From Halichondria panicea (taxonomy: Eukaryota > Porifera > Demospongiae > Suberitida > Halichondriidae): 64,000 nt of DNA. The translations under genes were made by a program, and so were the position numbers. Below the pieces are notes generated by a model. It was given only the letters and a program-made list of their open reading frames with translations. It was not told the DNA's origin and made no database searches. Of the stretch, positions 3,599 to 53,804 are shown in pieces; positions within the stretch are counted from its first letter, which is position 1, and each line of letters begins with the position of its first letter. The stretch lies in assembly GCF_963675165.1 (NCBI RefSeq), contig NC_087389.1, positions 5,306,120 through 5,370,119 on the forward strand, written 5' to 3'.

Positions 3599-3612
3599 CA
3601 CCACAGATAAGA
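3599..3612 (+). promoter_or_regulatory. conserved upstream motif of TRIM-2
   Basis: CACCACAGATAAGA, identical to the TRIM-1 copy, about 106 bp before the TRIM-2 start codon. Confidence 0.4.
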
Positions 3613-3717
3613 TTGGTTAGACTAGGGTTATCTTATCCAGGATTCCACAAAAAACCTTACAAAGGGGGAAAAGCGGGTCAGAATCACATGATTTCAGCAG
3701 ATCTAGAGAAACAAGCA

Positions 3718-20027: not shown

Positions 20028-23000
20028 CTGCACACAAGGATATAGAGATAAATAGTTAGCTGGCATTTATTAGAGCACGTGTACACACATGTACCCACTA
20101 TAACAAGAGGTTTCTATTGTCAAAACAAAGAAATACAAGACAGAGCATTTCGAAAACAGATCAATTATAGTTCCTATTATTAGCTCGAGTACACATGTAA
20201 TATGTATCCTCTTATAAGGCAGCAGCTGTATTGTAATGCCATACTAATCAGAATAGGCCACAAGGAATGATTGTAATATGATCAATGGCAATGATGTGAT
20301 AGTGGCGTATATAGACTCCAGGGAATAATAGTGTCAAAAGAGAATACATACGGTACAGTCAGCACAACAAGACACAGCTACGGAGTGTGTGTGCATGTAT
20401 TAGAGGAAGTACTATATAGCTCAAGTCAGTAGAGAGTTGATATCGCTACTTATATACCTATAGCTATCTATTTGTTTTGCAAGTACATCGTGAGTACATC
20501 ATTCCAATAGATCACTCTTGCTTAGCGACAGCGACATTCCAACCAATTATAGAGGAATTTTGAACAACAAATTGCCACTTAACAACCACAACTTCTATAA
20601 CAATGCCTGCAGCTGAACAATAGTTTAGAAGAACAGAACGTTGTACAAACAAAATTACTGCTGCAGTATTGAACATTAGAAATATGGCTGATAGTCAATT
20701 GCCAGTAGTAGCTGAGGAGTTGAGTTGTAGTGTGTGTCTGAGTGGTTTCAGAGAGCCTAAAGTGTTGCCGTGTTGTCACAGCTTCTGTCTCCATTGTCTG
20801 GAGGGAGCTCACGAGAAGACTAAAGACCACCTCACCTGTCCTCAGTGCAGGGCACAGCATCGGGTAAGGAGATAAAGTACTAGCATAGGCTAACTTAATT
20901 ATGAGCAATTGGACATAATTATAGCTAAACAATACAATTCAATACATTTCCAGAACTATGACAAAACACCTCACAAACAATAGTGTTCAATTACCCTTCC
21001 TCGCGTCCCCACCATATAGATTCCTGCTAGTGGCGTGTGTGGCTTCCTCACGGACTACACTCTCCTCAGCCCAAGGTTATGTGACAGGGACCACCCCCAG
21101 CAGCCCTGTGAGCAGTGTGAGGAGGGGGGCAGGGGAGTGGCCTACTGTGTCACATGCTCAGACTACCTCTGTACAGACTGTCTACAAGGACACAAGAAAT
21201 ACAAGCCGTTGAGACAACACGAGATAGTCGATCTACACGAGGAAGGAGGGGAGCCATTATCCAACAGAGGTGGATCGCGAGCTGTGTACACTTGTAGTAT
21301 TCATGTGAATGAGCCCCTGAGGCTATACTGTCAGACTTGCCAGGCACTAGTTTGTCTGCATTGCTTCGTACTGCTACACAATGGCCACGATATTGGAAAT
21401 ATCGACACTAAGAGAAGAAAAGGACTAGAAAAAACTATTAAAGAACTAGTCCGAGACACAAGACTTAGATTGAAAGAATTTGAAGGCAATTTGCAGTACA
21501 TAAAAGCCGTTGAAAAGGAAAAGACTAATGAAGCGGCACCAATTAAAGAAGAAATCAACAAAAAATTCGATTTCATTATTGCACAACTTGAAACAAGACG
21601 TCGGCAGCTGCTCAAAGATGCTGACGATGCACAGAGTAAAGATGTCAAAGAGTTGTGGGGACAGAGGGAATATCACGAGACAGCCATTACTCAAATGAGA
21701 GGTGCTCTGAGCTTTGCCAAGAGGTCGCTAGGGTGTGAGGAACATATACAGCTGTTTGCCGTTAGCCCGCAGGTTACAGCTCGGCTAAAACAGCTGAGTC
21801 AGCTGAAATGGGACTGCCAATCGACTGAAAGACTGGAAATGACAAGTTTACATTTCGGAAGCAGCAAAGTTGAAGATTTTCGCGCCCCAGTGATTGATTT
21901 CAAAGCCCTAGGGGCAGTACATCGAACCATTGCACCACCGGAACTGGATATAATGTCTAAAAACATCCCCAGCTCTGTACGAGTTGGTAGCTTGGTGGAG
22001 CTCCACATTAAAGCCACACTAAGATTGTATGGGAGAGAGCTACTAAAGAGAGCTCACGGTTACATACATGTGACAGCAGCAGCTACTGTACAGAGAAAGG
22101 AACAATCGGACAAGGCTAATGCTCAAGTATATCAAGACGGTGATGATCTATGGACTATACAGTTCACTCCACTACACAAGGGAACCTATTCTATTTGCAT
22201 TGAGGCCCGTGCTGCATACGGGCTGCAGGCCGTTAGCAACAAGTATAGATGTGACATGCTTGCACTATGATTATAATGATTACTAACAAATTAATAATAA
22301 CTCACAGCACAGGTTTTGTAAAATATAATAATGTTGCTATTCCTGCCATTGAGGATTCACTTGCATAAACTGTACGTGTACATAAAGGTCAATTCTTAAA
22401 TAAATGTCAATTCAGGATATAGGTATTAAATCAAAACGTAGAGGAGTTGTAATTAGTGATTGGCGTCCAAACTGCATACATGTACTTCCTGTTAGGGTCA
22501 AAGAAATGTTGCAGGTTCCAATTGGAGGATAAAAACTAATCGTCCATTCATTTTGACTTTTAGTAACTGTTTTAGTAACTGTTCGCCTGTCAGCTTCCTT
22601 TTTGAAGGACTTTTGGTGCTTTGAATAGTATCCACATTCAGTATATTCTTCTCTAGAGCCTGAACACATCGCTGATACATTGAGCTTCACATCATTGTCC
22701 TCTTCAAGCTGGAAATTTTTAAGAGTATTGGGAAAAGTTGCTGTCACTTTAAATGTCAACTCTTCCCCTGGTTTAAAGGTGGTCGGCATATCAATAGGTT
22801 CAATGTCAATAGTTGGGATAGAACGAGTAGAAATCTTCCCGACACGGTTACTAACATTGAAATATGTTGCAGGCTTCCATTCCACAGCAATTATTTCGAT
22901 TTTCTCAGTCTCATGAATGTCCCATTTTAGCTGACTCAGCTCTTTCAGTCTGGAGGTGACTTGTGCACAGAGGGCCAATAGTTCCGTGTCTTCCTTGCAG

Positions 23001-26000
23001 GCTAGAGCTCTTCTGGCAAAGCTCAGAGCACCCTCCATGCTCGTAATGGCTGTCTCGTGGTATTCTTTCTGTGCCCACAATTCTTTGAGGAGTTTCGTAC
23101 AAGTATCGTCAATCTTCTTGAGTAGTTCTTTACGCCTTGCTTCAAGTTGTTGGATGAGACCATCAACTTTCTTATCGACTTGAGCTTTAAGTGTAGTTAA
23201 AAGTTCTGATTTCTCCTTTTCAACAAACGAGATGTATTTCATATTATTACACGTAGCTTCAAATTCTTTCAACTTGGATTCAGTGGTCTCAACTAATTCA
23301 TTGATGGTCTCTTCTGCTTTAATTCTTGCTCCATCATTGCTCCTGATATCGTGACCATTGTGAGCGCTCACAAAACAGTGTACACACACCAACGTCATAC
23401 ACGAGTTGCAATACAGCTTGAGACCTTCCTCAGGGTGAATGGTACAGTAGTAGGACTTCTTCGGCAGAACAGTACTTTCGATTTCTTGGTCATCACTTTC
23501 GTAGCTCACAATTTCGTGCAAACGAAACAGTTTGAATTGCTTGTGAGCTGTTAAGCACTCGTTGCAGATGTGGGAGCAGGTGTTGCAATAAGCCACTGCA
23601 TTGTTGTTATCCTCGCACTGCTGACAAGTGGCCGGGGTGTGTGTGTCCTCCTTGCTTGGTATTAATGTGTAGTCATCCAGAAATCCCTTCACTCCATTAG
23701 GGGGCACCTACATGTACAGATAATCATAAGTTTATTATTCGACATGAACAAGCTAGTACGTACATGTACATCGCAATGTAACCACATAGGTGAAATACTC
23801 ACAAGGACCCGAAAAAAGCATGCACATGAAATGTGCAATAATTATATAAAGTACTGTCAATCAGGCTTGTACACAGTCGACGTATCCTTTACAAAGATTA
23901 AATACACATTCTAACCCAGGCTACAATATGTGCGGTCCCTTCCTTACCTGATGCTGTGTCCTGCACTGAGGACAGGTGAGGTGGTCTTTGGTCTTCTCGT
24001 GAATTCCCTCCAGACAATGGAGACAGAAGCTGTGACAACACGGCAACACTTTGGGCTCTCTGAAACCACTCAGACACACACTACAACTCAACTCCTCAGC
24101 TACTGGCAACTCTATACTGGCCATTTTTCAGTAGCACATGTTTTATGTGACATATGCATGACTAGTTTTTGCATGTGACGTGCATGCATGTACCACACTA
24201 ATCAGCTCGGGCCCATATATGGAAATGTAGTATTAACCACATGCATTACAGACATACACACATTTGTCAATGTTGCTGATATCCCACAACCTTTTCCGTT
24301 TCACCCATAATATTATGTATACTGGGGGTTCTAAGAAGCTCACATATCTATTCTATGCAAGCATGGCTACTGCAACAAGTATAGATGTGATGTGAGATGT
24401 GCTTGCACAATACAGGTTTTGAAATTCTGGGATTCACTAATGACAACCAACAAATGGTATAACACATCGTAAGAAATAAAGATAAAAGTCAAGTACATAA
24501 CACTACATAGCCTGGCATAAATAAACTTTAAGAGTAGCTGATACTGATTGATAACAATACTGCCCACTTGCTGTCAGGTTTAAAGTTATGCGTGTAGTTC
24601 CACTTGAAGGAAAAAAACTAACCGTCCATTCATTTTGACACTTCACAACATCCACGGCAACATTCTCTGTGAAATGTTGTGGTAGGTGTCGTCTTTGGGT
24701 AAAACTATACATATTTCTAGAGCCATCACACGATGCTGATCCACTGATTTTCAGATCATGATGCTCTCTAAGCTGGAAATTTTTAGGAGTATTGGCGAAA
24801 GCTACCATCAAATTATAAGCAACCCTTTCTCCTGATATGAAAGTATTCGACATTTCAATAGGTTCAATTTTAATAGTCGGAACAGAAGTATGAGCAACAA
24901 TTTTTCCGACACTAACTTCGTCAGATGTTTCAGGCGTCCAATTCACTAAACATGCTTCGATTTTCTCAGTCTCTTGAATGTCCCATTTTAGCTGACTCAG
25001 CTCTTTCAGTCTGGAGGTGACTTGTGCACAGAGGGCCAGTAGTTCCGTGTCTTCCTTGCGGGCTAGAGCTCTTCTGGCAAAGCTCAGAGCACCCTCCATG
25101 CTCGTAATGGCTGTCTCGTGGTATTCTTTCTGTGCCCACAATTCTTTGAGGTCTTTCGTACAAGCATCGTCAATCTCCTTGTGTAGTTCTTTACGCCTTA
25201 CTTCAAGTTGTTGGATGAGACAATCAACCTTCTTATCGACTTCAACTTTAAGTAGAGTTGAAATTTCTGCTTTCTCTTTTTCGACAGCAGAGATGTATTT
25301 CATATTATCGGTGAACTCTGTCAATTTCGAATCTGTTTCTTTCACTAGATCGTTGATACTTTGTTCCACTTCTTGTCTTATTTTGTCATCGATGCTTCCA
25401 ATGTCATGGCCGTTGTGATTATTCACAAAACAGTACACACATACCAACGATAGACAGGTTTTGCAGTAAAACTTGAGATTCTCCTGTGGGTGGACAGTAC
25501 AGTAGTAGGCCTTCCTCAGTTGAACAGTAATTTCGCTTTCACTTTCCTGGTTATCACTTTCGTAGCTCACAATTTCGTGCAAATGAAACACTTTGAATTC
25601 TTTGTGAGCTGTTAAGCACTTATCACAGATATGGGAGCAAGTGTTGCAATAAGCCACAGCATTGTTGTTATCCTCGCACTGCTGACAAGTGGCCGGGGTG
25701 TGTGTGTCCTCCTTGCTTGTTATTAATGTGTAGTCATTCAGAAACCCCTTCACTCCATTAGGGGGCACCTACATGGGAACAATTGAGGTATCTAACCAGA
25801 TAATCATGTAACTAGGCATGTACAAGTACATTGCAATGCATAAACTTACGTGTACAGTGTGCAACATACAGGGAAAAAAGCATATATGCAATAATCAATC
25901 AGGCTTGTACAGTGTCATTCACATGCGATTAACGCATTCTAAACCCAGGTATGATATGTACAGTCTCCTCTCCTTACCTGATGCTGTACTCTGCACTGAG

Positions 26001-29000
26001 GACAGGTGAGGCTTTTCTTGTCTTCGGTTTTCTCGTGAGCTTCTTCCAGACAATGGAGACAGAAGCTGTGACAACACGGCAACACTTTGGGCTCTCTAAA
26101 ACCACTCAGACACACACTACAACTCAACTCCTCAGCTACTGGTAACTCTATACCGGCAATTTTTCAGTAGCACGTGTTTTGTGGGGTGAATGACATGTGA
26201 CATGATGGACCTGTGCATGTGATAGGTTCCCTAGACTACACACGTTGCCCACTAATCAAGTTAAGCCAATGACATCTCACACACCAAATACAAAATAGTT
26301 ATGCTGCTGCCAAGGGCGTAGACAATCTGAGGTTGGGAAGGGTATACCGATAGTGTCATGAATCAGCCGCCCTTCCTAGGGGAGAGACCATCTGAGCACT
26401 TTAGTCTGAACTTTTTTGTCAGGTCGGAATTCCGACCTGAAAATAAAATGAAATAAAGAATGACAAGAACAATCTATAGCTTGTCTTAGCCAGTCTACAG
26501 TAAGTCGAGTTGACACTAGGCCTGTGCAACCCTTGTCTTGTTACGTTCTTGGAGCAAGCCAAACAAAAATTGATTACCGTATATGCTCGATCAGAGGCCG
26601 CTCTTGTATAAAGGCCGCACTCAAATAGTAGCCTCCCTTGCTAGCAAAATGAAACATTTAGTAGCCGCTCTCAAATAGTAGTCTAGTGAACTTTGACTCT
26701 AGTATTTCTGCACGTGGCAGCCAAAAAAATTATTACTAGCAGCTAGCTACATGTACGTAGCTACAAGTAGCAGCTTGTTAGTGCTTCACAAAGACTTTCT
26801 CATGGCAGAGTTCAAGTTTATGCAGGTGAAAACAACTTTTGATGACAAACTAAATTATCTGGAGCTAATAAACGCCGCTCTTGAACAGTGGCCTCTCTTG
26901 AATTGTAGCCTCCTCTTCCAGCAAAATGAAACATTTAGTAGCCGCGGCTCCTGATCAAGCATATACGGGTATTGTATTCTTCTGGTAGAGTACATACATG
27001 TACATGTAGCACATCACAGATAAGATACAGACTACATGACATTGTACAATTCCCACAGCAAGTACTGCACAACAAAGGCAGGGACACCATGCACCACTAG
27101 GTAACACCTATCATAGGTATCACATGATTAATTGCAGTAGATCTAGCTAGCTAGCTAGAGAACGAGCAATGGCAGAGAGTGCAGTGGTAGAAGAGCTTAA
27201 ATGTTCCATTTGCTTGGATAATTTCAAGAACCCCAAAGTACTGCCGTGTTGTCACAGCTTCTGTCTCCATTGTCTGGAGGGAGCTCACGAGAAAACTAAA
27301 GACAACAAAAGCCTAACCTGTCCTCAGTGCAAGGCTCAACATCAGGTAGAAACTACACGAGTGTCAATACATAACTGTATGCAAGTCTAGACAAACGCTT
27401 GTCTACAATCTATTTAAGTGATTGCACTAAGCTAGCTGTATCCAAACTATTCAACTATAAACTAGTCCATGTACTGACAAAGATAATTATGGCTTTTATT
27501 ATACAGGTTCCTACCAATGGCCTCCATGGTTTCACCGATGATTACACTCTTGCTAATCAGAAACAAGCTGCTACAATCACACCAGTTTGTGAGCAATGTG
27601 ATGATAGCAACAAACCAGTGGCGTACTGCCACACCTGCTCAGACTACCTGTGTGAAGAGTGTTTAAAGGATCACAAAAGAGTAAAAGCTATTCAAGATCA
27701 CAAGACAGTCAATATCACTCCTGATGGGAAGGCTCTTGATATCGAGCCCCAGGCAAAGAAGAGCTATTCGTGCAGTGTTCACCCCGAAGAACCACTAAAG
27801 CTTTACTGCAAGAGTTGTAAGAGCTTGGCCTGCCTCCTGTGCTTTGTGGGGCTACACAACGGCCATGACATTGGAAGCATCGATGGTAAAGCAAGACAAG
27901 AAGTGAAACAAAGTATCAACGATCTAGTGAAAGAGACAGATTTGAAATTGAAGGAATTTGAAGATAGCTTAAAATACGTTTCTGCAGTTGAAAAAGAAAA
28001 AACAGAAGCTCCGATTATACTCAAAGCTCAAGTTGATAAGAAAGTTGATTTTCTCATCCAACAACTTGAAGCAAGGCGTAAAGAACTACACAAGGAGATT
28101 GACGATGCTTGTACGAAAGACCTCAAAGAATTGTGGGCACAGAAAGAATACCACGAGACAGCCATTACGAGCATGGAGGGTGCTCTGAGCTTTGCCAGAA
28201 GAGCTCTAGCCTGCAAGGAAGACACGGAACTACTGGCCCTCTGTGCACAAGTTACCTCCAGACTGAAAGAGCTGAGTCAGCTAAAGTTGGCTAGTCAGTC
28301 CACAATGAAAATTGAAATGACAATTATCGAATTCAAACAGCCTCAGAGGAAGGAAACAGATACGACAGTTGGGGAGATAATTTCTACGCCAGATATACAA
28401 ATTACCACCACAGAGCTACAGAATCGAGTTCGATATTTTTATAACAGAAGTATTACGTTTCAAGTAACGGCAGTAATGAACTGTAAATGTAAATGGAAAC
28501 CTCCTAAACTAACTGCTTCAGCAACTTATACACAGGAAAACGAATATGATCAGAAGACATATAATTGTACGACCGATGAAAATGCTACAGCAAACAGTTG
28601 GACAGTCAAGTTCACTCCTAAACTATCGACTACTTACACAATTACATTTCAAATCAATGGAGACTATGGAGGTATAGAGCTACACAAAGCCTCTGAATAC
28701 CGTATCGAAGTATGTAATGAAGTCATTGACATCAGAAAATTCCATAAGTTTGGGCAAGTCGAGTAACTAGAACTGCACCAACAATGTCTGGTCATAAAAG
28801 TATCAGATTACACGTACTTTTGCTTTCTAATTATGTACATGAATAGCTACATAATTTAGTACACACGCACACACTCCACTATTGATCGTTACTAATTTTA
28901 GCGAATTTGTAATTAACGCTAAATTAAGTACGCGTTAAAGTAAAAAGATCATTCATTCTTGTCTTCACACAACAAGTTATTAGTGGCAGATTTTGATGTT

Positions 29001-32000
29001 AAAGCTTTGTTGTCAAATAAAAACGAGCAAAAGCTAAGAAGCTTGTGACTGAGTCTGCTTACCTGGATGCTATAGCACTGCGTTTACAGCATGGGTTGCC
29101 TCTTTCGATGTTAAAGCCTCGTTGTAGAATAAAAGCGAGCAAAAGCTATTCAGTGAAGAAACTTGAACTTGCACATTGGCCTCTACTAGCATACAGGTGT
29201 CCTTTATTCGAGGCCGGTACGTATTTATAGCTGAAGTGACCCTGTACCAGAAACAATGGAAAAGGGTCGCTAAAGTAGAAAGCTAGAATGATGATATAGA
29301 CTATAGGCTTCTTTGCTGTGATCAGTGCATCCATACCAAATCTCCATTTTCAAAAGTTTCAGCATGTCTCTGGAGTCTATAGAATTTCTTTGCTCATGTT
29401 ACTTGCTACTTAGCAAGCTTTCATGCTTTATATCATGTAAACAGCTGAGGGTTAGCACTTCAGTGCTCTAGTTATTGTGGTAATGCGCCAAAATTAGGTA
29501 CCCTAAAACACAGAGAAAAAGCTACCCATCTATAATAGTACGGTTAAGGTAGCACATCCACTGTTAACATTGTCAATACCAATAATGACTTTAGACTCAC
29601 CCCCCATTGTACTACACTGGTGGTGATTGACCAAGGCAACACAAAAGGTCAACAGCACATGACAAAGAAGAGCTAAATGGCAGAGAGTGCAGTGAAAGAG
29701 CTGAAATGTTCCATTTGCTTGGACAATTTCAAGAATCCCAAAGTGTTGCCGTGTTGTCACAGCTTCTGTCTCCATTGTCTGGAGGGAGCTCATGAGAGAA
29801 ACAAAGACAAGAAAAGCCTACCCTGTCCTCAGTGCAAAGCTCAACATCAGGTAATGTACATGTATAACGCTATGTAAATTATAATTATACACAAAATAAC
29901 TACTAAAGTATCCCTACGTATACATGTACTGAAAAAGATTACTATACAGTCGGCTTATTTATTACAGGTTCCTACCAATGGTCCCCGTGGTTTCCCCGAT
30001 GATTACACTCTTGCTAATCAGAAACACACTGCTACAACCACACCAGTTTGTGAGCAATGTGATGATAGCAACAAACCAGTGGCGTACTGCCACACCTGCT
30101 CAGACTACCTGTGTGAAGAGTGCTTGATAGCTCACAAGAGACTTAAGGCTTATCGAGATCACAAGACAGTCAATATCACTCCTGGGAAGGCTCTTGATTT
30201 CAAGCCCCGGTCAAAGAAGAGCTATTCGTGTAGTGTTCACCCTGAAGAACCACTAAAGCTTTACTGCAAGAGTTGTAAGAGCCTGGCCTGCCTCCTGTGC
30301 TTTGTGGGGCTACACAACGGCCATGACATTGGAAGCATTGATGGTAAAGCACGACAAGAAGTGGAACAAACTATCAACAATCTAGTGAAACAGACAGATT
30401 TGAAATTGACAGAATTTGAAGACGATTTAAAATATGTTTCTACAGTTGAAAAGGAAAAAGCAGAAGCTCCCATTCCATTCAAAGCTCAAGTTGATAAGAA
30501 AGTTGATTCTCTCATCCAACAACTTGAAGCAAGGCGTAAAGAACTACACAAGAAGATTAACGATGCTTGTACGAAAGACCTCAAAGAATTGTGGGCACAG
30601 AAAGAATACCACGAGACAGCCATTATGAGCATGGAGGGTGCTCTGAGCTTTGCCAGAAGAGCTCTAGCCTGCAAGGAAGACACGGAACTACTGGCCCTCG
30701 GTGCACAAGTTACCTCCAGACTGAAAGAGCTGAGTCAGCTAAAATGGGATAGTCAAGACACGGAGAAAATCGAAAGGAAAACCGTCGAATTCAAAGAAGC
30801 TAATAAACAAATAAATGCACAGGAAATAGAAACGGCAGTTGGGGAAATACATGTACAAACTGTTACGCCAGATATACAAATTACAACCACTGAGCTACAG
30901 AATGAGGTTCCATATTCTCATGGTTGTAGTATTACGCTTCAAGTAACGGCAACAGTGAATTTTAAATGTAAAACCCCTAAACTAACTGCTTCAGCAACTT
31001 GTACAGCCTTACCACATAATTCTGGATGGGATCTTGAGGAGGAATACTATGATTGTACAAGTGAGCAAAATACTACAGCGAACAGTTGGACAGTCAAGTT
31101 CACTCCTGAAGAACCAAATACTTTCACGATTACACTTCAAGTCAAAGGGAAGTATGGAGGCATAGAGCTACACAAAACTTCTACACACTACATCCGAAGT
31201 ATATTGCATTAATTGGTAGAACTATCACACAATATGACAATGTTTAGTTATACACGTTGTAAACATAAATAGTACGTAATTTATGAATCACGCAAATATG
31301 GTGCTAATGTCTTTGTGATAAGTTCATATCTTCTCATGCAGGGACGTATCTGTGAAGGGGTCTATAAACTACAGCGCATGCTGAACAAATAAAAAAAATG
31401 TGCATATACGTACATGTGGCACACATTTTTAGCACTTTTTCTCAATTTAAGCAAATTAGTGTCACAGCTAATATATACACCACAGACAAGAGCAAATACA
31501 CACATTCGCTAAAGTCTATTGGAGTGAGGAAGTTGTGTGGTCATTTATGGCTTCATTTATGTGGTTGACAAGTATGCCAGGACTTCTACAATGGAAATGT
31601 TAACTTTAGCTTCGAGCTATCACCTCTAGGAATATTTTAAAGGTAAACTCAACACAAATAATAATTATTCAGAACCATTCCAGGAAAGCAACACAAAAGG
31701 TTAATCACATGATTTCAAACAGCTAAAAACAAACAATAACAGAAAGTGCAGTAAAAGAAGAGCTGAACTTAAAGTGTTGCCGCTTCTGTCTCCATTGTAA
31801 AGCTTGTATACAAACTAACTATAGTATCCCTACGTACTTGCCATGAACTAGCTGTCAAAGATTAACTATACGGTTGGCTTATTTATGTACAGGTTCCTAC
31901 CAATGGTCCCCGTGGTTTCCCCGATGATTACACTCTTGCTAATCATAAAAACGATCCAACAACCACACCAGTTTGTGAGCAATGTGATGATAGCAACAAA

Positions 32001-35000
32001 CCAGTAGCGTACTGGTGCTCTGAGCTTTGCCAGAAGAGCTCTAGCCTGCATGCAAGGAAGACACGGAACTACTAGCCCAAGTCACCTCCAGACTAAAAGA
32101 GCTGAGTCAGTTGATATGGGATACCCAATCCACAATGAAATTGAACTATCGAATTCATAGAAGTGAACGAACAAACATATGCACAGTCTCTCATGGTTAG
32201 TGAAGGGGAAACAGATACGACAGTTGGGGAAATACATGGCAATTTATCATCACAGGGCTACGGGACTGTGTTCCATATAGCAGTACATGTACTGCATTAT
32301 AAATGGAAATGCATAAACTAACCGCTTCAACTAAATGTAGGTTCTCCTATATCCAATCCTCTATAATTATTCAGTCAAATTACAACTGAAGCACATGCTA
32401 CAGCAACAGTTGGACAGTCAAGTTTACTCCTAAACTATCGACTACTTACACGATTACATTTCAGATCAATGGTGACGGAGGCATAGAGCTACACAAAGCC
32501 TCAGAATACCGTATCGAAGTATGTAATGAAGTCATTGACATCAGAAAATTCCATAAGTTTGGGCAAGTCGAGTAACTAGAACTGCACCAATCATATTGTA
32601 ACAATGTCTGCATGCATAGAAGAATCAGATTACACGTTATGTATGTTGCTTTCTCTCTATGTACTTTATTAAAACTGTGCACAACACCATAATGCCATGA
32701 TTGAAACTAGAGCAACTCAAAGAGGTTTGTACACCTTGTAGAGTAACTGTACGCACTATTTATTTTGTGTACAGTCAATGGACTATAAGGATGGTGGTGT
32801 CAACAGGGTGGGGCTACGGGTTCCAAGGCAAAGGCTACATAACAGAGATATAATTATAGTTCTAACCTTAGTAGATTGCAGAGTCCATGCAGGGATTCAG
32901 GGAATTAGAAGAAACATCAAAACATCAAACCACTAATTATTGATAGAGTATAGAGCACCCACAGATAAAGATAATATTGCAACACACAACAACAAAAGGC
33001 AACATAAAAGGTCAACGATTTTAAAGAGCTAAAGACAAAAATGGCAGAGAGTGCAGTGAAAGAACAGCTGAAATGTTCCATTTGCTTGGACAATTTCAAG
33101 AAGCCCAAAGTGTTGCCGTGTTGTCACAGCTTCTGTCTCCATTGTCTGGAGGGAGCTCACGAGATAAACAAAGACAAGAAAAGCCTAACCTGTCCTCAGT
33201 GCAATGCTCCACATCAGGTAGAAACTATTAGCTATGTATACAAACTAACTAAGTATCATACGTACATGTACTGACAAAGATTAATTATACGGTTGGCCGG
33301 CTTTTATTACAGGTTCCTACCAATGGTCCCCGTGGTTTCCCTGATGACTACACTCTTGCTAATCAGAAACAAGCTGCTACAACCACACCAGTTTGTGAGC
33401 AATGTGATGATAGCAACAAACCAGTGGCGTACTGCCACACCTGCTCAGACTACTTGTGTGATGAGTGCTTGAAAGCTCACAAGAGACTTAAGGCTTATCG
33501 AGATCACAAGACAGTCAATATCACTCCTGGGAAGGCTCTTGATATCAAGCCTCAGGCAAAGAAGAGCTATTTGTGCAGTGTTCATCCTGAAAAACTACTA
33601 GAGCTTTACTGCAAGAGTTGTAAGAGCTTGGCCTGCCTCCTGTGCTTTGTGGGGCTACACAACGGCCATGACATTGGAAGCATTGATGACAAAACAAGAC
33701 AAGAAGTGGAACAAAGTATCAACGATATAGTGAAAGAAACAGATTCGAAATTGAAGCAATTTGAAGAGAGCTTAAAATACGTTTCTGCAGTTGAAAAAGA
33801 AAAAGCAGAAGCTCCCATTACACTCAAAGCTCAAGTTGATAAAAAAGTTGATTTTCTCATCCAAAAACTTGAAGCAAGGCGTAAAAAACTACACAAGGAG
33901 ATTGACGATGCTTGTACGAAAGTCCACAAGGAATTGTGGGCACAGAAAGAATACCACGAGACAGCCATTACAAACATGGAGGGTGCTCTGAGCTTTACCA
34001 GAAGAGCTCTGGCCTGCAAGGAAAACACGGAACTACTGGCTCTCGGTGCACAAGTCACCTCCAGACTGAAAGAGCTGAGTCAGCTAAAATGGGATACCCA
34101 GTCCACGGAGAAAATCGAAATGATAACAATCGAATTCAAAGAAGTGAACGAACAAACATATACACAGTCTCTCACGGTTAGTGAAGGGGAAACAGATACG
34201 ACAGTTGGGGAAATACATGTACAAACTTCTACGCCAGATATACAAATTACCGTGACAGAGCTAGAGAATTGTAGTGTTATGCTTCAAGTAACGGCAGTAA
34301 TGAAAGGGAAATGTAAACCTCCTAAACTAACTGCTTCAGCAACTTGTACACCCATGCACTGTGTACGTGGTCAAATTACAACAGAAGAAAATGCTGCAGT
34401 AAATAGTTGGACAGTGGAGTTTACTCCTATACAACCATGTACCTACACGATTACATTTGAAGTCAATGGGGAATATGGAGGCATAGACCTACACAAAGCT
34501 TATGACTATCGCATCAAACATTGCGAAAAATTTTCTCAAGTGCTTTATAAGAAGAGCAGGAAAAAAAAGGGCAAGAAAATGCCAGAAGTCGAGAATTAGA
34601 GCATCATGGTCATATGATGTAGATTGTGTAGCATAATTTAGTTTCAAGCACCTGTGGTGTAAAATGCCTTGGTCTAAGAAAGTTGATTACCCGAGGTGCG
34701 TGTGGGCGACCACAGGTATAGTAGTCTGTTGGTCTGTTTGTCTGTTGGTCTGTTTGTAATATTATTATCTGATTATCTGAGTCTACTCACCTGAATGCCA
34801 TAGCACTGCGTTTATACAGCATGGATAGCCTTCACACAACAAGTTATGAGTTTAAAAGTGGCAGATTTTAATGTTAAAGCTTTGTTGTCGTATAAAAGCT
34901 AAGAAGCTAAGAAACTTAGCACGTTGCCTAGCTCTACATGCACAGCTGAAGTGATCGTACAATTGTAGGTTGTTGCATGCTTTTTTACTCCTCTGGTTTT

Positions 35001-38000: not shown

Positions 38001-41000
38001 GGTTCATTTATTCTCATGCATGCGTATGGGGATGTAGCAAGCAAGTGCACAACTATGAGATAAAGAGGCGGATCGGTCAAATAAACTACAGTGCTGAACA
38101 AATAGTTCAACATAAATAAAAGTGTGCATATAGCTTTCAAAAAGTACCACGATTATAATATTTTTTCAACATCACAAACTTGTGTCACAGCTAATATATA
38201 CACCACAGACAAGAGCAATACACACATTCGCTGAAGTCTATTGGAGTTGAGGAAATTGTGTGGTCATTTATGGCTTCATTAATGCATACATGTATGCCTG
38301 GGACTTCTCATGAAACTGTTAGCTGGTTGGAGCTTATCGCCTCTAAAACATACAGACATAGAAGCACTTTTTAACAAGGAATCCAATGGTATATGACAAT
38401 TGGAATTTCAGTGAAATATGGAAGTTATGACAATAATTATTATGAAGGTCAACACAAAGAGACAGTGATATTCATAAGCATTCCAGGAAAGCAACATAAA
38501 AGGACAAAAGGTCAAACTGTTCATGCATCACATGATTTCCAAGAGCTAAAATCAAAACAATGGCAGAGAGTGCAGTGGTAGAAGAGCTGAAATGTTCTAT
38601 TTGCTTGTACAATTTCAAGAATCCCAAAGTGTTGCCGTGTTGTCACAGCTTCTGTCTCCATTGTCTAGAGGGAGCTCACGAGATAAACAAAGACAAGAAA
38701 AGCCTAACCTGTCCTCAGTGCAATGCTCCACATCAGGTAGAAACTATTAGCTATGTATACAAACTAACTAAGTATCTTACGTACATGTACTGACAAAGAT
38801 TAACTATACGGTCGGCTGGCTTTTATTACAGGTTCCTACCAATGGTCCCTGTGGTTTCCTCGATGACTACACTCTTGTTAATCAGAAACAAGCTGCTACA
38901 ACCACACCAGTTTGTGAGCAATGTGATATAGCAACAAACCAGTGGCGTACTGCCACACCTGCTCAGACTACCTGTGTGAAGAATGTTTAAAAGCTCACAA
39001 AAAAGTAAAAGCTCTTCGAGATCACAAGACAGTCACTATCACTCCAGGGAAGGCTCTTGATATCGAGCCCCAGTCAAAGAAGAGCTATTTGTGCAGTGTT
39101 CATCCCGAAGAACCACTAAAGCTTTACTGCAAGAGTTGTAAGAGCTTGGCCTGCCTCCTGTGCTTTGTGGGGCTACACAACGGCCATGACATTGGAAGCA
39201 TTGATGGCAAAACAAGACAAAAAGTGGAACAAAGTATCAACAATCTGGTGAAAGAAACAGATTCGAAATTGATAGAATTCGAAGACAACTTGAAATACGT
39301 TTCTACCCTTGAAAAAGAAAAAACAAAAGCTCACATTCCACTCAAAGCCCAAGTTGATAAGAAGGTTAATTTTCTCATCCAACAACTTGAAGCAAGGCGT
39401 AAGGAACTACACAAGGAGATTGACGATGCTTGTACGAAAGACCTCAAAGAATTGTGGGCACAGAAAGAATACCACGAGACAGCCATTACGAGCATGGAGG
39501 GTGCTCTGAGCTTTGCCAGAAGAGCTCTAGCCTGCAAGGAAGACGCGGAACTACTGGCCCTCTGTGCACAAGTCACCTCCAGACTGAAAGAGCTGAGTCA
39601 GCTAAAATGGGACAGTCAAGCCACAGAGAAAATCGAAATGACAACCCTTGAATTCAAAGAAACTAACGAGCAAACATACATGTATGCACATCCTGTAGTG
39701 GTTCGTTTAAAAAAGGGGGAAGTACCATCCAGTTTTAAACTTGTTGGGGAGTTACGATCAACAGCTGCTAGGCCAACCATACAAATCACCACCGATAAAC
39801 AAGAATATCGTGTCCTATATCCTTTAGGTGAAGACGCTCGCATTCAAGTTACAGCAAGAGTGAAAATTAATGGAAAGAATGCTCTAAACAACACAAAAAT
39901 AACTATTTCAGCCACTGATTCACGTAAAGGTTACCCAGCATCTTACTACGGTGCTGAACAATTTGATTTTCAAGAAAATGCTGAACCCAATAGTTGGACA
40001 GTCAAGTTCAATCCTAAAACTGAAAAGAAGTACAGAATTGTAATTCTAGCATGTGGGAAATATGGAGACACAATTCTGGAAGGCAGTACTGAACATATCG
40101 TTCAGGTAGAGAGAGTCAAAAGTGAACCACACGTGTATCCAGATTTTGTCAAAAGAAAAATTAGATTGTAATTGACACAGTCATGTAGTTATAAGTTATG
40201 TACATACTGTGCACATGACTGTAATGATCTCTTAAAACGTACAATTTATTAAGTGCGTGTAACCATGCATACGAAATGCAGATCATATTTTACACTGTAT
40301 ACAAGGCCCACAACAACAATCTACGTTTATCAACCTACATTTAAATCATCAATTTAGTGAATATCGCATGTAGAGCTACGTACTTACATTGTAAAGCCTC
40401 GAGCAAACATACAGACCATTAAATCTATTCGTGATGAGTTTGGCCCTCATAATGTTGTCATTCTGACTTTAGTTACCGTATAGCGCGATATTTTTGAGGC
40501 ACTTATATTTCGTGGATTGGCCTCTAAAAGCATTCGTTGCACAATGTTCGCGGAATGACTGCTTACCAGAAACCACGCCTTTAAATCTTTACACGTTATA
40601 GCAGATAATTCTAATTAAAGAACAATTTTCGTGGACTTAGTTTTCGTGTAGGATTGCTAACCCACGAAATCCGCGAAAATTTCGCGCTATACGGTATAAC
40701 TAAAGTCAGCACTTTCCATGTGCAACCACATAACACAATTAATCGGTTTTATTTGAGGCCTATACAATCCCTTATTGAAATTGTGGCGTATAATCAAGGA
40801 ATTATTTGAGACGCATAAAATAATGTCGCATTATGTTTTCGGAATCTTAAAATTGGCCAAAACACACCTAATTTTATGACTGAATGACATTGGTGGGCGG
40901 GTCTAGCCACAGTTTATGGCTTCTAGAATGCTAAAACAATTTGTACTAAGAACATAATTATGTGTACCGTATATGCTTTGATCAGAATTCTCAGTAGGGT

Positions 41001-44000
41001 GTGGCTATGAGTCTAGAAGGGTGTGGCTACACAATTAATGTAAAAAGAAGACAAGAAGACATGCATATGTAGTTCAGGGTACACATGCAGTTTCATAAAA
41101 CAGCAAGCCACTAATTAGTGATAGATACAGCCACACCACACTACAGACAGACAAAATGCAATTAGTACCACACATTAGGCAACATCACATGTCAGATTTC
41201 TTAGAAGAGCTATTAAAAATGGCAGAGAGTGCAGTGAAAGAAGAGCTCATTTGCTTGGACAACTTTAACAATCCCAAAGTGTTGCCCTGTTGTCACAGCT
41301 TCTGTCTCCATTGTCTGAAGGGAGCTCACGAGAGAACCAAAAACAAGAATGGCCTAACCTGTGCTGAATGCAAAGCTAAACATCAGGTACATGTAGAAAC
41401 AATTCTACATAGCTTACAAGACATGTTTTTTAAATTTGTATTAACAAACTAGCTAACAGGTATCCATAATTATTTGAACACTTTATTACAGGTTCCTACC
41501 AATGGTCCCCGTGGTTTCCCAGACAATTACACCCTTGCCAATCAGAAATGTAACCCTGCTACAACCACACCAGTTTGTGAGCAATGTGATGATAGCAACA
41601 AACCAGTGGCGTACTGCCACACCTGCTCAGACTACCTGTGTGATGAGTGCTTGAAAGCTCACAGAAGAGTAAAAGCTGTTCGAGATCACAAGACAGTCAA
41701 TATCACTCCTGGAAATGCTCTTGATATCGAGCCCCAAGCAAACAAGAGCTATTCGTGCAGTGTTCATCACGAAAAACCACTAGAGCTTTACTGCAAGGAT
41801 TGTAAGAGCTTGGCCTGCCTCCTGTGTCTTGCGGGGCTACACAACCGTCATGACATTGGAAGCATCGATGGTAAAGCAAGACAAGAAGTGGAAGAAACCA
41901 CCAAAGACCTAGTAAAAAAAACAGATTCGAAATTGACAGAATTCAAATACACTTTGAAATATGTTTCTGCAGTTGAAAAGGAAAAAGCAGAAGCTCCCAT
42001 TCCACTCAAAGCTCAAGTCGATAAGAAAGTTGATGGTCTCATCCAACAACTTGAAGCAAGGCGTAAAGAACTACACAAGGAGATAGACGATGCTTGTACG
42101 AAGGACCTCAAAGAATTGTGGGCACAGAAAGAATATCACAAGAGAGCCATTACGAGCATGGAGGGTGCTCTGAGCTTTGCCAGAAGAGCTCTAGCCTGCA
42201 AGGAAGACACAGAACTACTGGCCCTTTGTGCACAAGTCACTATCAAAATGGAAATGCTGAGTCAGCTAAAATCGGACAGTCAAAATACAGAGAAAATCGA
42301 AATGAAAAACGTCAAATTCAAAGAAACTAATGAACAGGAAACTGATACGGTTGGGGATATACATGTACAAACGTTTACGCCAGATATAAAAATTAGGACC
42401 ACAGAGCTACAAAAACGCGTTCCATTTTCTGAGGGTTGTAGTATTTCCTTTCAAGTAACGGCAGCAGTGAATTTTAAATGTAAAACTCCTAAGCTAACTG
42501 CTTCAGCAACATATACAGCCCTGTACTATGACTATGAATACGGTCAAGACACATATAAATGTATAACTGAAGAAAATGCTACAGCAAACAGTTGGACGGT
42601 CAAGTTCACTCCTAAAGAAACAAATACTTACACGATTACACTTCAAGTCAAAGGGCAGTATGGAGCCACATACCTACGCAAAACTTTGGACTACCAGATC
42701 GAAGTACATGTACATTATAGTGCACTAGAGGAGGAGCAAATGGAAGTACATGAGAATAAATTGAGTTGGTAGAACTGCATCATACAATAATTACATGACA
42801 ATGTTTTGGTTACATAAATGTATAAGATCGCATGTTCTAAGTGTAACTATAATGAATGAAGCACATGTGGTGCAAAATTCCTTGGTCTAGGTTCATTTAT
42901 TCTCATGCATGCGTATGGGGATGTAGCAAGCAAGTGCACAACTATGAGATAAAGAGGCGGATCGGTCAAATAAACTACAGTGCTGAACAAATAGTTCAAC
43001 ATAAATAAAAGTGTGCATATAGTTTTCAAAAAGTACCACGATTATAACATTTGTTCATTACGATTCAGCATCACAAACTTGTGTCACAGCTAATATATAC
43101 ACCACAGACAAGAACAATACACACATTTGCTAAAGTTTATTGGAGTGGAGGAAATTGTGTGGTCATTTATGGCTTCATTAATGCATACATGTATGCCTGA
43201 CAGAGACTTCTTGAAACTGTTAGTTGGTTGGAGCTTATCACCTCTAAAACATACAGACATTGAAGCACTTTTTAACAAGGAATCCAATGGGAATATGACA
43301 ATTTAAATTTCAGTGAAGTATGGAAGTTATGACAATATTATGAAGGTCAACACAAATAGACTTTAGTAAGCATTCCAGGAAAGCAACACAAAAGGACAAA
43401 AGGTCAAACTGTTCATGCATCACATGATTTCCAAGAGCTAAAATCAAAACAATGGCAGAGAGTGCAGTGGTAGAAGAGCTGAAATGTTCTATTTGCTTGT
43501 ACAATTTCAAGAATCCCAAAGTGTTGCCGTGTTGTCACAGCTTCTGTCTCCATTGTCTGGAGGGAGCTCACAAGAGAAACAAAGACAAGAAAAGCCTAAC
43601 CTGTCCTCAGTGCAAGGCTAATCATCAGGTAGTATAATTATAAGACCTGTTTAAAATGTTTGTAAAGATTGTATACACTAACTAGTATCCCTACGTATAT
43701 GTACTGACAACTAACTATATAAAAGTTGTTTTAAATTCTATTAATTTTATGTACAGGTTCCTACCAATGGTCCCCGCGGTTTCCCCGATGATTACACTAT
43801 TGCTAATCAGAAACAAGCCCCAACAACCACACCAGTTTGTGAGCAATGTGATGATAGCAACAAACCAGTGGCGTACTGCCACACCTGCTCAGACTACCTG
43901 TGTGAAGAGTGTTTGAAAGCTCACAAAAGAGTAAAAGCTATTCGACGAGATCACAAGACAGTAAATATCACTCCTGGAAAGGATATCGAGCCCCAGGCAA

Positions 44001-47000
44001 AGAAGAGCTATTTGTGCAGTGTTCACCCTGAAGAACCATTAAAGCTTTACTGCAAGAGTTGTAAGAGCTTGGCCTGCCTCCTGTGCTTTGTGGGGCTTCA
44101 CAACGGCCATGACATTGGAAGCATCGATGGCAAAACAAGACAAGAAGTAGAACAAATCATCAACAATCTAGTGAAAGATATCGATTTAAAATTGAAAGAA
44201 TTCGAAGATGATTTGAAATATGTTTCTGCTGTTGAAAAAGAGAAAGCAGAAGTTTCAACTCCACTCAAAGCTCAAGTTGATAAGAAGGTTGATATTCTCA
44301 TCCAACAACTTGAAGCAAGGCGTAAAAAGCTACACAAGGAGATTGACGATGCTTGTACGAAAGACCTCAAAGAATTGTGGGCACAGAAAGAATATCACGA
44401 GACAGCCATTACGAGCATGGAGGGTGCTCTGAGCTTTGCCAGAAGAGCTCTAGCCTGCAAGGAAGACACGGAACTACTGGCCCTCTGTGCACAAGTCACC
44501 TCCAGACTGGAAGAGCTGAGTCAGCTAAAATGGGATAGTCAGTCGACAGTGAAAATCGAAATGACAACTGTTGAATTCAAAGAAGCGAACGAACAAACAT
44601 ATGCACAGCCTCTCGTGGTTAGTCCAAAAAAGGTGGAAACAGATACGACAGTTGGAGAGATACAAACTTCTACACCAGATATACAAATTACAGTGACAGG
44701 GCTAGGTAAGCATGCTCCATTTTCTTACTTGCCTGATTATAGTATTACGTTTCAAGTAACGGCAGTAGTGAATTTTAAGTGGAAATGGAAACCTCCTAAA
44801 CTAACCGCTTCAGCAACTTATACATCCCAGAACTGCTATGAACGTGATCAAATTACAACAGAAGAAAATGCTACAGTAAACAGTTGGACAGTGAAGTTTA
44901 CTCCTACGCAACCAAGTGTCTACCTGATTACATTTGAAGTCAATGGGGATTATGCAGGCATAGACCTACACAAAGCTTATGACTATCGCATCGAACTGTA
45001 TTATAAACCAACAAGAAGAAAAACTCCGAGAATTTAAGTTATTGGAATTAGAACTGCATCATATACACTGGTCATAATTATACATGTATCAGATTGTGTA
45101 GTAAGGATTGTAATGTATGGCGCAAAATGCCTTGGTCTAAGAAAAATTTATTCTAGGAATGACAAATCTCATGCATGCATATGGGGGGTGTAGCACACAA
45201 GTCATTTGTATGACTATGAGAGGTGGATTTGTACAGAGGTCAAATTTCACAATTAGTTACTAGTAGCCCAGAATCCAGCAATCTGATTGGTCAGTACAGG
45301 GTTTATATTTCCCATATTAACCTGTAAATTCTCATATAAACCTGTAATTTTCATGTTCACAACAACCATTCATTATTAATTTTTGTGTTTTTCAAACATG
45401 TGTTTTGTATAATTATTGTATTATAAAAAACAATGAGAAGTAACTGTTTTGTTTTGGTAATGACAAAAAATTATAATGTTCAGTCGCTGTTAATACGTTG
45501 GTTGTTGGATGTAGGCATATAGAGAGATCGATGGTATAACGTTGCAGGCACTAAAGTTAAAGTTTGGAGGCATAAATTGACAGCAGTTGGTTTGTGAGTT
45601 TTGTTGCACTGCCATCTGTGAGTGATTAGTGTGTGCCAGTATATATGTTAATTGGCTTTACGTTGAGGATGTCTGAAACTGACTTCTTTTGACACTCAGA
45701 AGTTCTCTTGTAGCTGCGAACTCCTTCCAAGCTTCGGTGTCCAGTTGTTTCCATTATCATTTGTTCGTCCACTCCAGCGTTGTAGAGTCTAGTAGCAGCA
45801 GTTGCACGGAGTATGTATTAGAGGTTCAGCCTTCTTTTGTGACCCTAGTCCAGCTCTCTGCAAGCGCTTCATTTCGGAGTCTAGGCACACTCGAAAGTCA
45901 GCAAAACAAGCATCCTTGAACAGGTCAATCCCGGGATTTCCATTCTAATTATTCACCTTATGCAGATATCACTATCCAAACTGTACACTGCACCTGCCGT
46001 GATAAGAGGCCTGCAGACACTTTGCTTCATTCGCTTTGAGTTAGGTAGAGAAGATTGTGCAGGTTCTGTTGGCTTGTCCAGCTCCTCCTCCTTTCTTTGT
46101 TCTGTAGAAAGAGTAGCCAGCTCCGCCTCCACATTTAGAGGGCGGGGTCTATGGGCTCGGTCATTATTATGCCGAGTACTTCTTCAGAAAAGAGCTTGTC
46201 TAGGCCTAGGTCTTCGTCCGCGTCCATTCTTTAGGTTAGTTTTTGAAATGAACCTAGCAACTAAACTCGTTAGATACTGTTTAGTCGGTATCTATGGGAA
46301 TTATAAGCCCGCAGGCACTCGTAGTACCCTCGCTTCGCTCGGGATACTACAGCAGGCCTTTGGGCTTATAATTCCCATAGATACCTCCTAAACAGTATCT
46401 AACTATTAATAAACTACTGTAACAGTGCTGAACAAATATAAATAATTACATGAAAAATGTAGAGCACTCGGAACTACATGAACCTACTAGCTATTAAATG
46501 ATTATGAAGAAACTAGAGGAGGAGTGATATAATGCGCATGTAGTGATGTATGACTGAGCTGTCTAGCACAGCAACTCAGGAGCAGTAGAAACTAAACCAG
46601 ACTGGGAGGCATGCTGAAAGATTTGAGAACAGAGTTTAGTGCATGGTACATGAGACATGCACTGTGGCTATGATTACAGTGAAGAAGCCTGGAGTCTTAG
46701 AGTAGTATGGTCTTGGTGCTACGATCCAGAGCCAGCAAAGAAGCCTCCCGAAACAACAAACCAGTCACAATTCTAGCTTTCTACTCTAGTGATCCTTTTC
46801 CATTGTTATTGGTACAGGATCACTTCAGCTGTAAATACGTAATAGGCCTACCTCGAATAAAAGCCGGGGTGTATATAGCCAGAGTGTTAGTTCAGCTTCT
46901 TAGCTTTTATTCGACAACAAAGCTTTAATTAACATCAAAATCTGCCACTATTATGTAATGTGCTATTGAAAATTTTACACAACTGCTTACACCATAATTA

Positions 47001-50000
47001 TGTCATCACAATACAGACCTAAAAATTATCATGTGACTACCGTATATATGCTCGATCAGAGGCCGTGGCTACTGAATGTTTCATTTTGCTGGCAAAGGAG
47101 GTTATTCTTTGAGAGAGGCATTTATTGGGCCTACTAACACCCCAGCAAATTCAACCACCTTTAGTTTGAATTCAGGTTGCACATAAAAACTTATTTTCAC
47201 CTGTAACAACTCAAACTCTGCTATGAGAGAGTCTTTCAAAAGCACTAACAAACAGCTACCGTAGATACCAGTATCAATATGGCTGCCCACATGCAGGCCA
47301 ATAAAGTGTTGGTGTTTGCAGAGTGGGGCTATGGGTTTAGAAGGGCTATCAGTATGGGTTCAGGGGATACTTAATAAATAATAGTGAACATAATTATTAT
47401 ATTAGTAAGGGCCACTTCTACATGTATATAAGATTGCACTGTGCATGCCTGCATGGGCTGTATGCTAATATTCTGACCAATGAGATCAATTAGTGGTGAC
47501 GTAAGTGTGGTATAGGAGTATACATGCAGCCACTAGCAGTACCGATATTTCCAAGTACATTGTACTCCACAACAAAGGCCATTATAGGCAACCCATTATA
47601 TAAGACACAAAAGGTCAATATCACATGATTTCAAAGAATAGCTAAACGACGAAAATGGCAGAGAGTGCAGTAAAAGAAAAGCTGAAATGTTCCATTTGCT
47701 TAGATAACTTCAAGAATCCCAAAGTGTTGCCGTGTTGTCACAGCTTCTGTCTCCATTGTCTGGAAGGAGCTCATGAGAGAAACAAAGACAAGAAAAGCCT
47801 AACCTGTCCTCAGTGCAAAGCTAAACATCAGATAGAAACAAACTAACAGATATAATGAGTCGTTAATAAAAATTATATGTTTGTATCCTGTTTCTTAACT
47901 GGTATCCGTACGACATGCACTGCTAAGACAACATTCCATTACAGGTTCCTACCAGTGGTCTCCATGGTTCCACTGATGATTACACACTTGCTAATCAGAA
48001 TCAAGCTGCTACAACCACACCAGTTTGTGAGCAATGTGATGATAGCAACAAACCAGTGGCGTACTGCCACACCTGCTCAGACTACCTGTGTGAAGAGTGC
48101 TTGATAGCTCACAAGAGACTTAAGGCTTATCGAGATCACAAGACAGTCAATATCACTCCTGGGAAGGCTCTTGATTTCAAGCCCCGGTCAAAGAAGAACT
48201 ATTCGTGTAGTGTTCACCCTGAAGAACCGCTAAAGCTTTACTGCAAGAGTTGTAAAAGCTTGGCCTGCCTCCTGTGCTTTGTGGGGCTACACAACGGCCA
48301 TGACATTGGAAGCATTGATGGTAAAACAAGACAACAAGTGGAAAAAACTATCAACAATCTTGTGAAAGAAACAGATTCAAAATTGAGGGAATATAAAGAC
48401 AGCTTGAAATATGTTACTACCCTTGAAAAGGAAAAGATAGAAGCTCCCATTCCACTTAAAGCTCAAGTTGATAAGAAGGTTGATTTTCTCATCCAACAAC
48501 TTGAAGCAAGGCGTAAAGAACTACACAAGGAGATTGACGATGCTTGTACGAAAGACCTCAAAGAATTGTGGGCACAGAAAGAATACCACGAGACAGCCAT
48601 TACGAGCATGGAAGGTGCTCTGAGCTTTGCCAGAAGAGCTCTAGCCTGCAAGGAAGACACGGAACTACTGGCCCTCTGTGCACAAGTCACCTCCAGACTG
48701 AAAGAGCTGAGTCAGCTAGAATGGGATAGTCGGTCCACAAATAAAATCGAAATGAAAACCCTTGAATTTAAACAACCTCAGAGGAAGAGGGGAACAGATA
48801 CGACAGTTGGAGATATACAAATAGCAACTCCTACGCCTAATATAATTATCACCACAGAGCTACAGAATCGTGTTCCATATTCTCATGGTTGTAGTATTAC
48901 GTTTCAAGTAACAGCAGTAATGAACTATAAATGGAAACCTCCTAAACTAACTGCTTCAGCAACTTATGCACAAGAAGACAAATATGATCGAAGGATATAT
49001 TATGAATGTATAACTGAGGAAAATGCTACAGCAAACAGTTGGACAGTTAAGTTCACTCCTAAACTATCAACTACTTACACAATTACATTTCAAATCAATG
49101 GTGACTATGGAGGCATAGAGCTACACAAAGCCTCTGAATACCGTATCGAAGTATGTAGTATCCCTAGGTGAAACGTCAGACTACCACTCTATGGAATTAG
49201 AAACTAGAACTGCATCATCATATACAGTAACAAAGTTTTGCTTTCTAAACATAATCTACTACTTAACGTTGCTTATGGAAAACTGCACATCACTGTACAC
49301 CATATAATGTCATGACTGAAAGAACAGTGACCTAATTGCATACTGTAGTCCTGGATTGTACGTATACAAAATAATGCACTGTTAGTATAATCAAGAGTTC
49401 ATGAACTCTTGGTATAATTATTGTACATGTAATAAAGACACAAATTGCTTTACACAAAGACACTTACATGTGATAGTACTTCAATTGAACACCTTGAGCC
49501 AACGTTGAGTATGGACGTTGCATTACAATACACAGAGAATACACTTATATTATATAGAGTAACTGTACTCATAATTATAAAATTATATGTACAGTACCCA
49601 AGAGTACAGCACACATAATGTATGATTGTACTGTTCACCTTTTATTGTACATAATTATTACGAACATACAACTCAATGTTACTTATGGAAAACTGTGCAC
49701 AGCACATACACTATAATGTCATGGCTGAAATTACAGCAACCAAATACTAAACGAGGTTTGTTAAAGACTGAAGGTTAACATGAAGTCAAATAATTGCATA
49801 TCCATTCCTTGGGCACATCGTACATCACACATGTACTTAAATAAGAAACAAATTAAAATTCTACAAAAGCACCTGATCGTACTTTAACCATCAATTAAAG
49901 AACACTGTGAGCCAACGTTAAGTATAATATACACAGAGATTAGAGAATAACGTATAATTATTGTAGAGAAACTGTACGCACATTGGCTAAGAAAAAAAAT

Positions 50001-53429: not shown

Positions 53430-53804
53430 GTGAGCTGCTGTATGTACAGTACTAGTAATACAAATATAATTTTACGTAGTACATTTATGTACACCCTGTA
53501 GTGGTGGAGCCACTAAAGATCAACTGTTAAAATCCCAATGTATATAGTGTCAGCATTGTATGCATGACAGTATGTACTTGGAAACAATTTGTCTCTACTA
53601 TACCGTCTAGTTGCATTGAGTTCGACCCCGGAAGTTATGTGGTCAATTATGGCTTCATGTTATGCTTTTATTGTGTGGTTGAAAAGTATGCCAGGGACTG
53701 ACTCTACATGTACATAGAAAATGCTAACTTTTAGCTGGTTGAAGCTTTTAACAAGGAATTCAATGGTACTTGAAACTTTGAAGTATATATAATTATGACA
53801 ATAG

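Follow-up and report, generated by a model that had tools for sequence, protein, structure and literature searches.

In its fifth intron, an intact ALDH1L (10-formyltetrahydrofolate dehydrogenase) gene carries eleven two-exon TRIM loci and two TRIM fragments, nine of the loci lying antisense to the host gene (+ strand) and two on the host's own strand (-). The initial annotation, which called the host ALDH1L2, had described such an intron, with nine TRIM45-like loci on the opposite strand, and the locus count bears out that arrangement. We consider it quite likely that this interval (positions 20028–50058) forms the nested central part of a compound cluster in which TRIM, NLR, and ALDH1L sequences are arranged in tandem and which owes its shape to gene conversion and unequal exchange. 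The TRIM array spans approximately 128 kb, with copies in the window (the whole stretch of 64,000 nucleotides analyzed here, C13:5306120–5370119) on either side of the host gene (1539–5351, +; 61976–63654, -) and further copies past its edges. The features of the window are collected in Table 1.

Table 1. Coordinates of the ALDH1L gene and the TRIM loci in the window
Feature	Position	Strand	Remarks
ALDH1L (10-formyl-THF dehydrogenase)	12301–52760	-	22 coding exons, 979 aa; GT-AG joins, consistent phase, intact ORF
ALDH1L E1	52760–52482	-	
ALDH1L E2	51849–51688	-	
ALDH1L E3	51264–51107	-	
ALDH1L E4	50558–50393	-	
ALDH1L E5	50163–50059	-	
ALDH1L intron 5	20028–50058	-	30,031 bp, phase 0
ALDH1L E6	20027–19938	-	
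ALDH1L E7	19509–19372	-	
ALDH1L E8	18900–18686	-	
ALDH1L E9	18329–18188	-	
ALDH1L E10	17708–17526	-	
ALDH1L E11	17209–17145	-	
ALDH1L E12	16909–16688	-	
ALDH1L E13	15855–15750	-	
ALDH1L E14	15472–15385	-	
ALDH1L E15	15323–15130	-	
ALDH1L E16	15022–14974	-	
ALDH1L E17	14712–14589	-	
ALDH1L E18	14248–14157	-	
ALDH1L E19	13905–13800	-	
ALDH1L E20	13599–13518	-	
ALDH1L E21	13064–12947	-	
ALDH1L E22	12356–12301	-	
TRIM L6	1539–3159	+	outside host gene
TRIM L7	3688–5351	+	outside host gene
TRIM I1	20684–22270	+	intact; most diverged copy
TRIM I2	22412–24124	-	intact; host's strand
TRIM I3	24503–26157	-	exon 2 frame open, no ATG in RING exon; host's strand
TRIM I4	27169–28766	+	intact; RING and B-boxes matched
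TRIM I5	29677–31212	+	intact
TRIM fragment	31890–32572	+	
TRIM I6	33041–34599	+	intact
Short TRIM fragment	35383–35493	+	
TRIM I7	36332–37883	+	damaged: RING-exon frameshift, exon 2 stop
TRIM I8	38560–40171	+	exon 2 frameshift; filamin domain of L3/L6 type found outside host gene
TRIM I9	41189–42772	+	open; first RING Cys absent; near-copy of I7
TRIM I10	43452–45037	+	intact
TRIM I11	47655–49171	+	splice donor GT to AT; adjoins host exon 5
TRIM R1	61976–63654	-	outside host gene; several stops

Results

The host gene and its fifth intron

Exons of the ALDH1L model were built from exon anchors linked via GT-AG sites of consistent phase, and the resulting frame is open over 979 codons, with a terminal stop and no internal ones. 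The protein matches the cytosolic 10-formyltetrahydrofolate dehydrogenase of PDB entries 7rlu and 7rlt over its full length (E about 1e-266; 7rlu residues 1–886 align in four stretches), carrying the N-terminal formyltransferase/hydrolase, the carrier, and the C-terminal aldehyde dehydrogenase on one chain. Exon 16 encodes FFNKGENCI, the ALDH2-type active-site region, whose Cys we take to be catalytic, and an extension of about 78 residues lies ahead of the conserved start. When the genome (a 131,455,214-base assembly of 39 contigs) was searched with exons 1 to 9, all 10 matches fell at the C13 locus, two of them from a second partial copy. Exons 11 to 22 (exons 16 and 22 being without rows of their own in this search) matched elsewhere at no more than 48% identity, to other aldehyde dehydrogenases; exon 10 was compared with the 144-kb neighborhood only.

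Intron 5 stands apart in size from the remaining 20 ALDH1L introns, which measure 61 to 832 bp. It has GT-AG edges in phase 0 (donor GAG/GTGAGC; acceptor GTGTGCAG/AT), and the exons on either side of it encode adjacent stretches of the enzyme, the joined protein aligning to 7rlu across the junction with one extra residue, eight residues ahead of the junction. These observations uphold the initial proposal that the host exons join in phase over this interval, and splicing of exon 5 to exon 6 across 30 kb would follow from them. Intron 5 contains 21 AATAAA hexamers when read on the host's strand and 25 on the opposite one, no notable asymmetry.

TRIM loci within the intron

The TRIM loci take up 17,499 of the 30,031 bp of intron 5. 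Seven of the eleven (I1, I2, I4, I5, I6, I9, and I10) have an open frame and usable splice sites, with I9 counted among them despite its missing first RING Cys; I3, I7, I8, and I11 are damaged. The blocks containing I7 and I9 are 95.2% identical over 2,394 bp, a likeness that is due to a young tandem duplication or to conversion, so that the array, earlier described as expanding, can be said to be still changing.

The order of parts encoded at the TRIM loci is RING, B-box, B-box, coiled coil, and a putative filamin-fold domain. RING and B-box Pfam models scored above cut-off in the loci scanned, in the order of the TRIM/RBCC family, and the B-box and coiled coil were matched by TRIM28 and TRIM3 structures in the PDB. 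The Pfam Filamin model was below cut-off in all five TRIM proteins scanned. Structure prediction was confident only in the C-terminal domain (residues about 293–405; mean pLDDT 53.4 and pTM 0.31 for the model), and this domain resembled the filamin domains of TRIM3, LIN-41, and TRIM45 (Z of 10.7, 10.1, and 9.0, respectively), although unrelated Ig-like folds scored alike in the same comparison (top row 4kh9_A, Z 11.1) and TRIM45 ranked 49th in the plain Foldseek list. The filamin-fold domain is presumably the target-binding part. By their domains the loci would encode E3 ligases, and family knowledge together with the NLR neighbors suggests a role in innate immunity. In the account of TRIM classes given in PMC3503706, TRIM45 is class X and is placed in subfamily C. 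The proteins here share with TRIM45, as outlined there, a RING, two B-boxes, a coiled coil, a putative filamin-type domain, and a lack of NHL repeats in frame; they differ from it in that their filamin likeness is by fold only and in forming a local multigene family versus one gene.

The array on both flanks of the host

When the genome was searched with a TRIM exon 2 (146 of 224 candidates scored), the 23 best matches comprised 22 at C13:5251879–5380138, flanking ALDH1L on both sides, and one on C9; the next match dropped to 27% identity. Outside the intron there are twelve family loci or large pieces, seven on the + strand and five on the - strand. The earlier view that the array belongs to the ALDH1L intron is thus not supported, since it occupies both flanks and sequence passes between its members over the host exons. 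Nor is antisense orientation peculiar to the intron: the excess there (9 of 11 loci, versus 7 of 12 outside) is not significant (Fisher p = 0.37), and TRIM strand follows TRIM clade. We accordingly dropped the idea that selection lies behind the strand bias, the whole array sharing the same mix.

The lone family copy on another chromosome (G000:C9:2648008–2648795) is 77% identical. In the same scored set of 146 of 224 candidates, other TRIM-like genes, whose open reading frames are about 740 aa long and 21 to 33% identical to the query, were seen in large clusters on C3, C5, C11, and C17 of G000. Another TRIM-like type, diverged to 26% identity, occurs at 3–449 (+) of the window and at C13:5255350, 5262394, and 5303179, and ends in a MIB_HERC2-like stretch that is below the Pfam cut-off. 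Pieces of NLR (NACHT-LRR) genes lie beside the ALDH1L 3' end at 7449–10002 (+), with others at C13:5271572–5274717, 5280447–5282507, and 5290197–5293399; the leftward tandem duplication of these pieces also took in TRIM blocks and relics of ALDH1L exon 1. Upstream of ALDH1L are two open reading frames on the + strand with no Pfam match, 60168–61157 (329 aa, with a hydrophobic stretch as judged by eye) and 55206–55589 (127 aa).

Relics of ALDH1L duplication

A second ALDH1L 5' part, C13:5381529–5382777, comprises exons 1, 4, and 5, with exons 2 and 3 absent. Its identities to the intact gene are 93% in exon 1, 98.2% in exon 4', 92.6% in intron 4' (gaps left out), and 96.2% in exon 5'; the global alignment was used from exon 4 onward, its rows for exons 1 to 3 (38 to 45%) being misaligned where exons 2 and 3 are missing. 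About 0.9 kb separates TRIM R4 from exon 5', a spacing like that between I11 and exon 5, and the intervening sequence is alignable. The presence of a TRIM gene beside both copies of exon 5 indicates that one probably adjoined exon 5 prior to that duplication; the tree link to I11 is weak, R4 joining I4 and I11 at 65% support. Purifying selection on exons 4' and 5' and alternative 5' halves of the UGT1 kind, which exon identities of 96 to 98% might bring to mind, were dropped in view of the 92.6% identity of intron 4' and the absence of exons 2 and 3.

Further relics are an exon 22 at C13:5249927–5250099 (77%) and exons 1 at C13:5277670–5277828 and 5287173–5287314. Exon 1 and exon 22 DNA matched the genome around the ALDH1L locus in five of five and two of two cases, the gene itself counted. 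To the left of ALDH1L, TRIM and NLR blocks are duplicated at 90 to 93% identity, C13:5251409–5256788 with 5299213–5304622 and C13:5262383–5274717 with 5303168–5316067, and the pieces closest to I1 are at C13:5256906 (94%) and 5259715 (72%). Taken with the relics, the block duplicates indicate that ALDH1L traveled in compound TRIM and NLR duplications, one intact copy of it being found. A 383-bp match between 10960–11353 and 53801–54183 was dropped as part of any duplication; it is a dispersed repeat on many contigs, with many copies at 97 to 98% (40 of 373 candidates scored), and probably a recent mobile element.

In a neutral-decay simulation of 2,000 runs, the share of runs that kept the host reading frame free of stops was 3.4% for a change of 3.7% and 16% for a change of 2%. 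Because neutral decay leaves that many runs stop-free, the intactness of the frame is by itself moderate evidence for selection on host splicing since the duplication.

Exchange between copies and divergence by domain

Trees and an AU test were computed without R1, R3, L2, and L4, which are broken or partial, and with I7 kept, its stop entered as X. Forcing the eight intronic + copies into one clade was rejected (delta lnL 182; p-AU 0.000143), and in the tree of the filamin part the intronic I8 grouped at 98% support with L3 and L6, from the left of ALDH1L. The partner of I11 was I5 in the tree of the 5' part (95%) and I4 in that of the C-terminal part (100%), a conflict that is a sign of mosaic genes.

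Silent divergence between the + and - clades fell from about 0.8 in the B-boxes to 0.12 in the coiled-coil core and was back at 0.67 in the C-terminal part. In four + versus - pairs, 59 to 61 of 61 third positions in the core were equal, whereas the 5' part had 54 to 72 equal out of about 150 (p of 2e-13 to 2e-19 by Fisher's test). The control copy I1 had no drop in silent divergence in the core (31 of 61 equal; p = 0.54), and the core is therefore not merely constrained at silent sites. A shorter tract in the RING had third-position identity of 0.93 to 0.94 versus 0.40 to 0.45 immediately upstream. These are short tracts of low silent divergence between diverged paralogues, the pattern by which ectopic gene conversion is recognized, and the coiled-coil and RING tracts are homogenized between inverted copies within and outside ALDH1L.

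The C-terminal filamin part behaves differently. In five pairs chosen among the possible ones, its pN/pS was 0.55 to 0.99, versus 0.03 to 0.45 in the stretch of the B-boxes and the first coiled coil; when the counts from two block-duplicate pairs were pooled, the C-terminal versus B-box/coiled-coil comparison gave p = 0.00018 (Fisher), and the mean over 55 pairs of + copies was 0.65 in the C-terminal part versus 0.19 to 0.34. The I7-I9 pair had zero C-terminal change and a value of 0.83 in B-box 1. No value exceeded 1, and relaxed constraint thus fits the filamin domain equally well as diversifying selection. Variation in the domain is greatest in the C-D segment, EF loop, strand G, and tail and least in strand E; limitation of the variation to the C-D segment was not supported, the other three regions being equally variable.

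Discussion

A model of the locus is proposed in which a TRIM gene would first have come to lie in intron 5, beside exon 5, and a segment running from that TRIM gene through exons 5 to 1 would then have been tandemly duplicated rightward, with intron 5 subsequently growing by unequal exchange. ALDH1L would have been co-duplicated with the cluster, every copy found except one having decayed, and the middle third of the approximately 128-kb TRIM cluster would now fill intron 5 of the intact gene. The host may tolerate the array because splicing removes it. Ectopic gene conversion may hold the RING core and coiled coil alike, preserving the E3 scaffold and its pairing, with the filamin domain diverging.

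The reverse history, in which the TRIM genes first lay outside ALDH1L and an intergenic array became an intron when a segment of exons 5 to 1 plus TRIM genes was tandemly duplicated and the proximal exons 5 to 1 were lost, would agree with the TRIM genes on both flanks and with the second 5' part and further exon 1 relics, which attest repeated duplication of the ALDH1L 5' end. We nevertheless regard it as unlikely, given that no relic of exons 1 to 5 turned up between exon 6 and I1 or anywhere else in the intron and that a TRIM gene stands on the intron-5 side of both exon 5 copies. Retention of the array because antisense TRIM transcription regulates ALDH1L is improbable: strand follows clade and the strand mix is similar outside the host, even if 9 of the 11 intronic loci are antisense and antiparallel nesting is commoner and better conserved in the human-mouse comparison as presented in PMC2330155. 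The disproportionate size of intron 5 could also mean that the two halves of ALDH1L are no longer one gene, with exons 1 to 5 and 6 to 22 expressed apart, or that ALDH1L is dead. This is very unlikely, as the intron edges are clean and in phase, all 979 codons are open, the first Met from exon 6 onward does not come before residue 67, and the broken copy nearby has already lost exons 2 and 3. Mis-assembly or merged haplotypes might be suspected in a repeated region where some copies are 95% alike; however, no N occurs in the window or in eight 10-kb pieces flanking it, each ALDH1L exon fits once, and most copies differ at 15 to 35% of silent sites, and we give this explanation hardly any credence.

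A bolder extension of the nested-cluster model would treat host and array as one unit. The intron would then be an enduring nursery in which conversion between inverted copies, acting across host exons, rebuilds a family of immune E3 ligases, and I2 and I3 could give in-frame chimeras. The TRIM junctions and the ALDH1L exon 5-exon 6 junction are all phase 0, as are the exon 2 acceptors of I2 and I3, and hypothetical chimeras of ALDH1L with either locus would thus stay in frame. Examples, if the idea were true, would be ALDH1L exons 1 to 5 joined to B-box, coiled coil, and filamin domain or a RING joined to ALDH1L exons 6 to 22. We hold this extension to be a long shot.

Gene nesting itself is common in animals, sponges included: according to the figures quoted from PMC10282587, nested genes make up 12.4% of Aphrocallistes vastus genes, with 5 to 10% typical, values that depend strongly on annotation. 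The present locus resembles those cases in having genes placed within the predicted intron of another gene and differs from them, as they are described there, in holding eleven members of a tandem family in one intron, with the array continuing outside the host. The earlier description of the arrangement as unusual therefore fails for nesting as such and may stand for the nested tandem array, of which no report was found in open-licence PMC papers, weak evidence of novelty. As in the Synapsin-Timp case outlined in PMC2330155, host and nested gene were probably duplicated here as a unit, with losses later; that case has one nested gene per host and is old and conserved, unlike the multigene array with one intact host copy seen here. 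The zebrafish NLR-B30.2 family, in the part of PMC4852459 concerned with it, is likewise a tandem immune family in which conversion differs by domain and the recognition domain diverges. There, the recognition module is B30.2 and positive selection was demonstrated, whereas here the diverging domain has a putative filamin fold, pN/pS is at most 0.99, and a host gene lies inside the cluster.

In sum, this array is an example of domain-wise evolution in an early-style TRIM family, in which the RING and coiled coil are conserved and the filamin domain is diverging. It also bears on the origin of nested arrays, with segments holding host exons and array genes together and dated relics of both left behind. 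The locus makes testable the effects on a host gene of array growth, conversion between inverted copies, and same-strand splice and polyadenylation signals, and it offers a natural case of a metabolic gene forced to keep splicing out a fast-turning array of immune-type genes.
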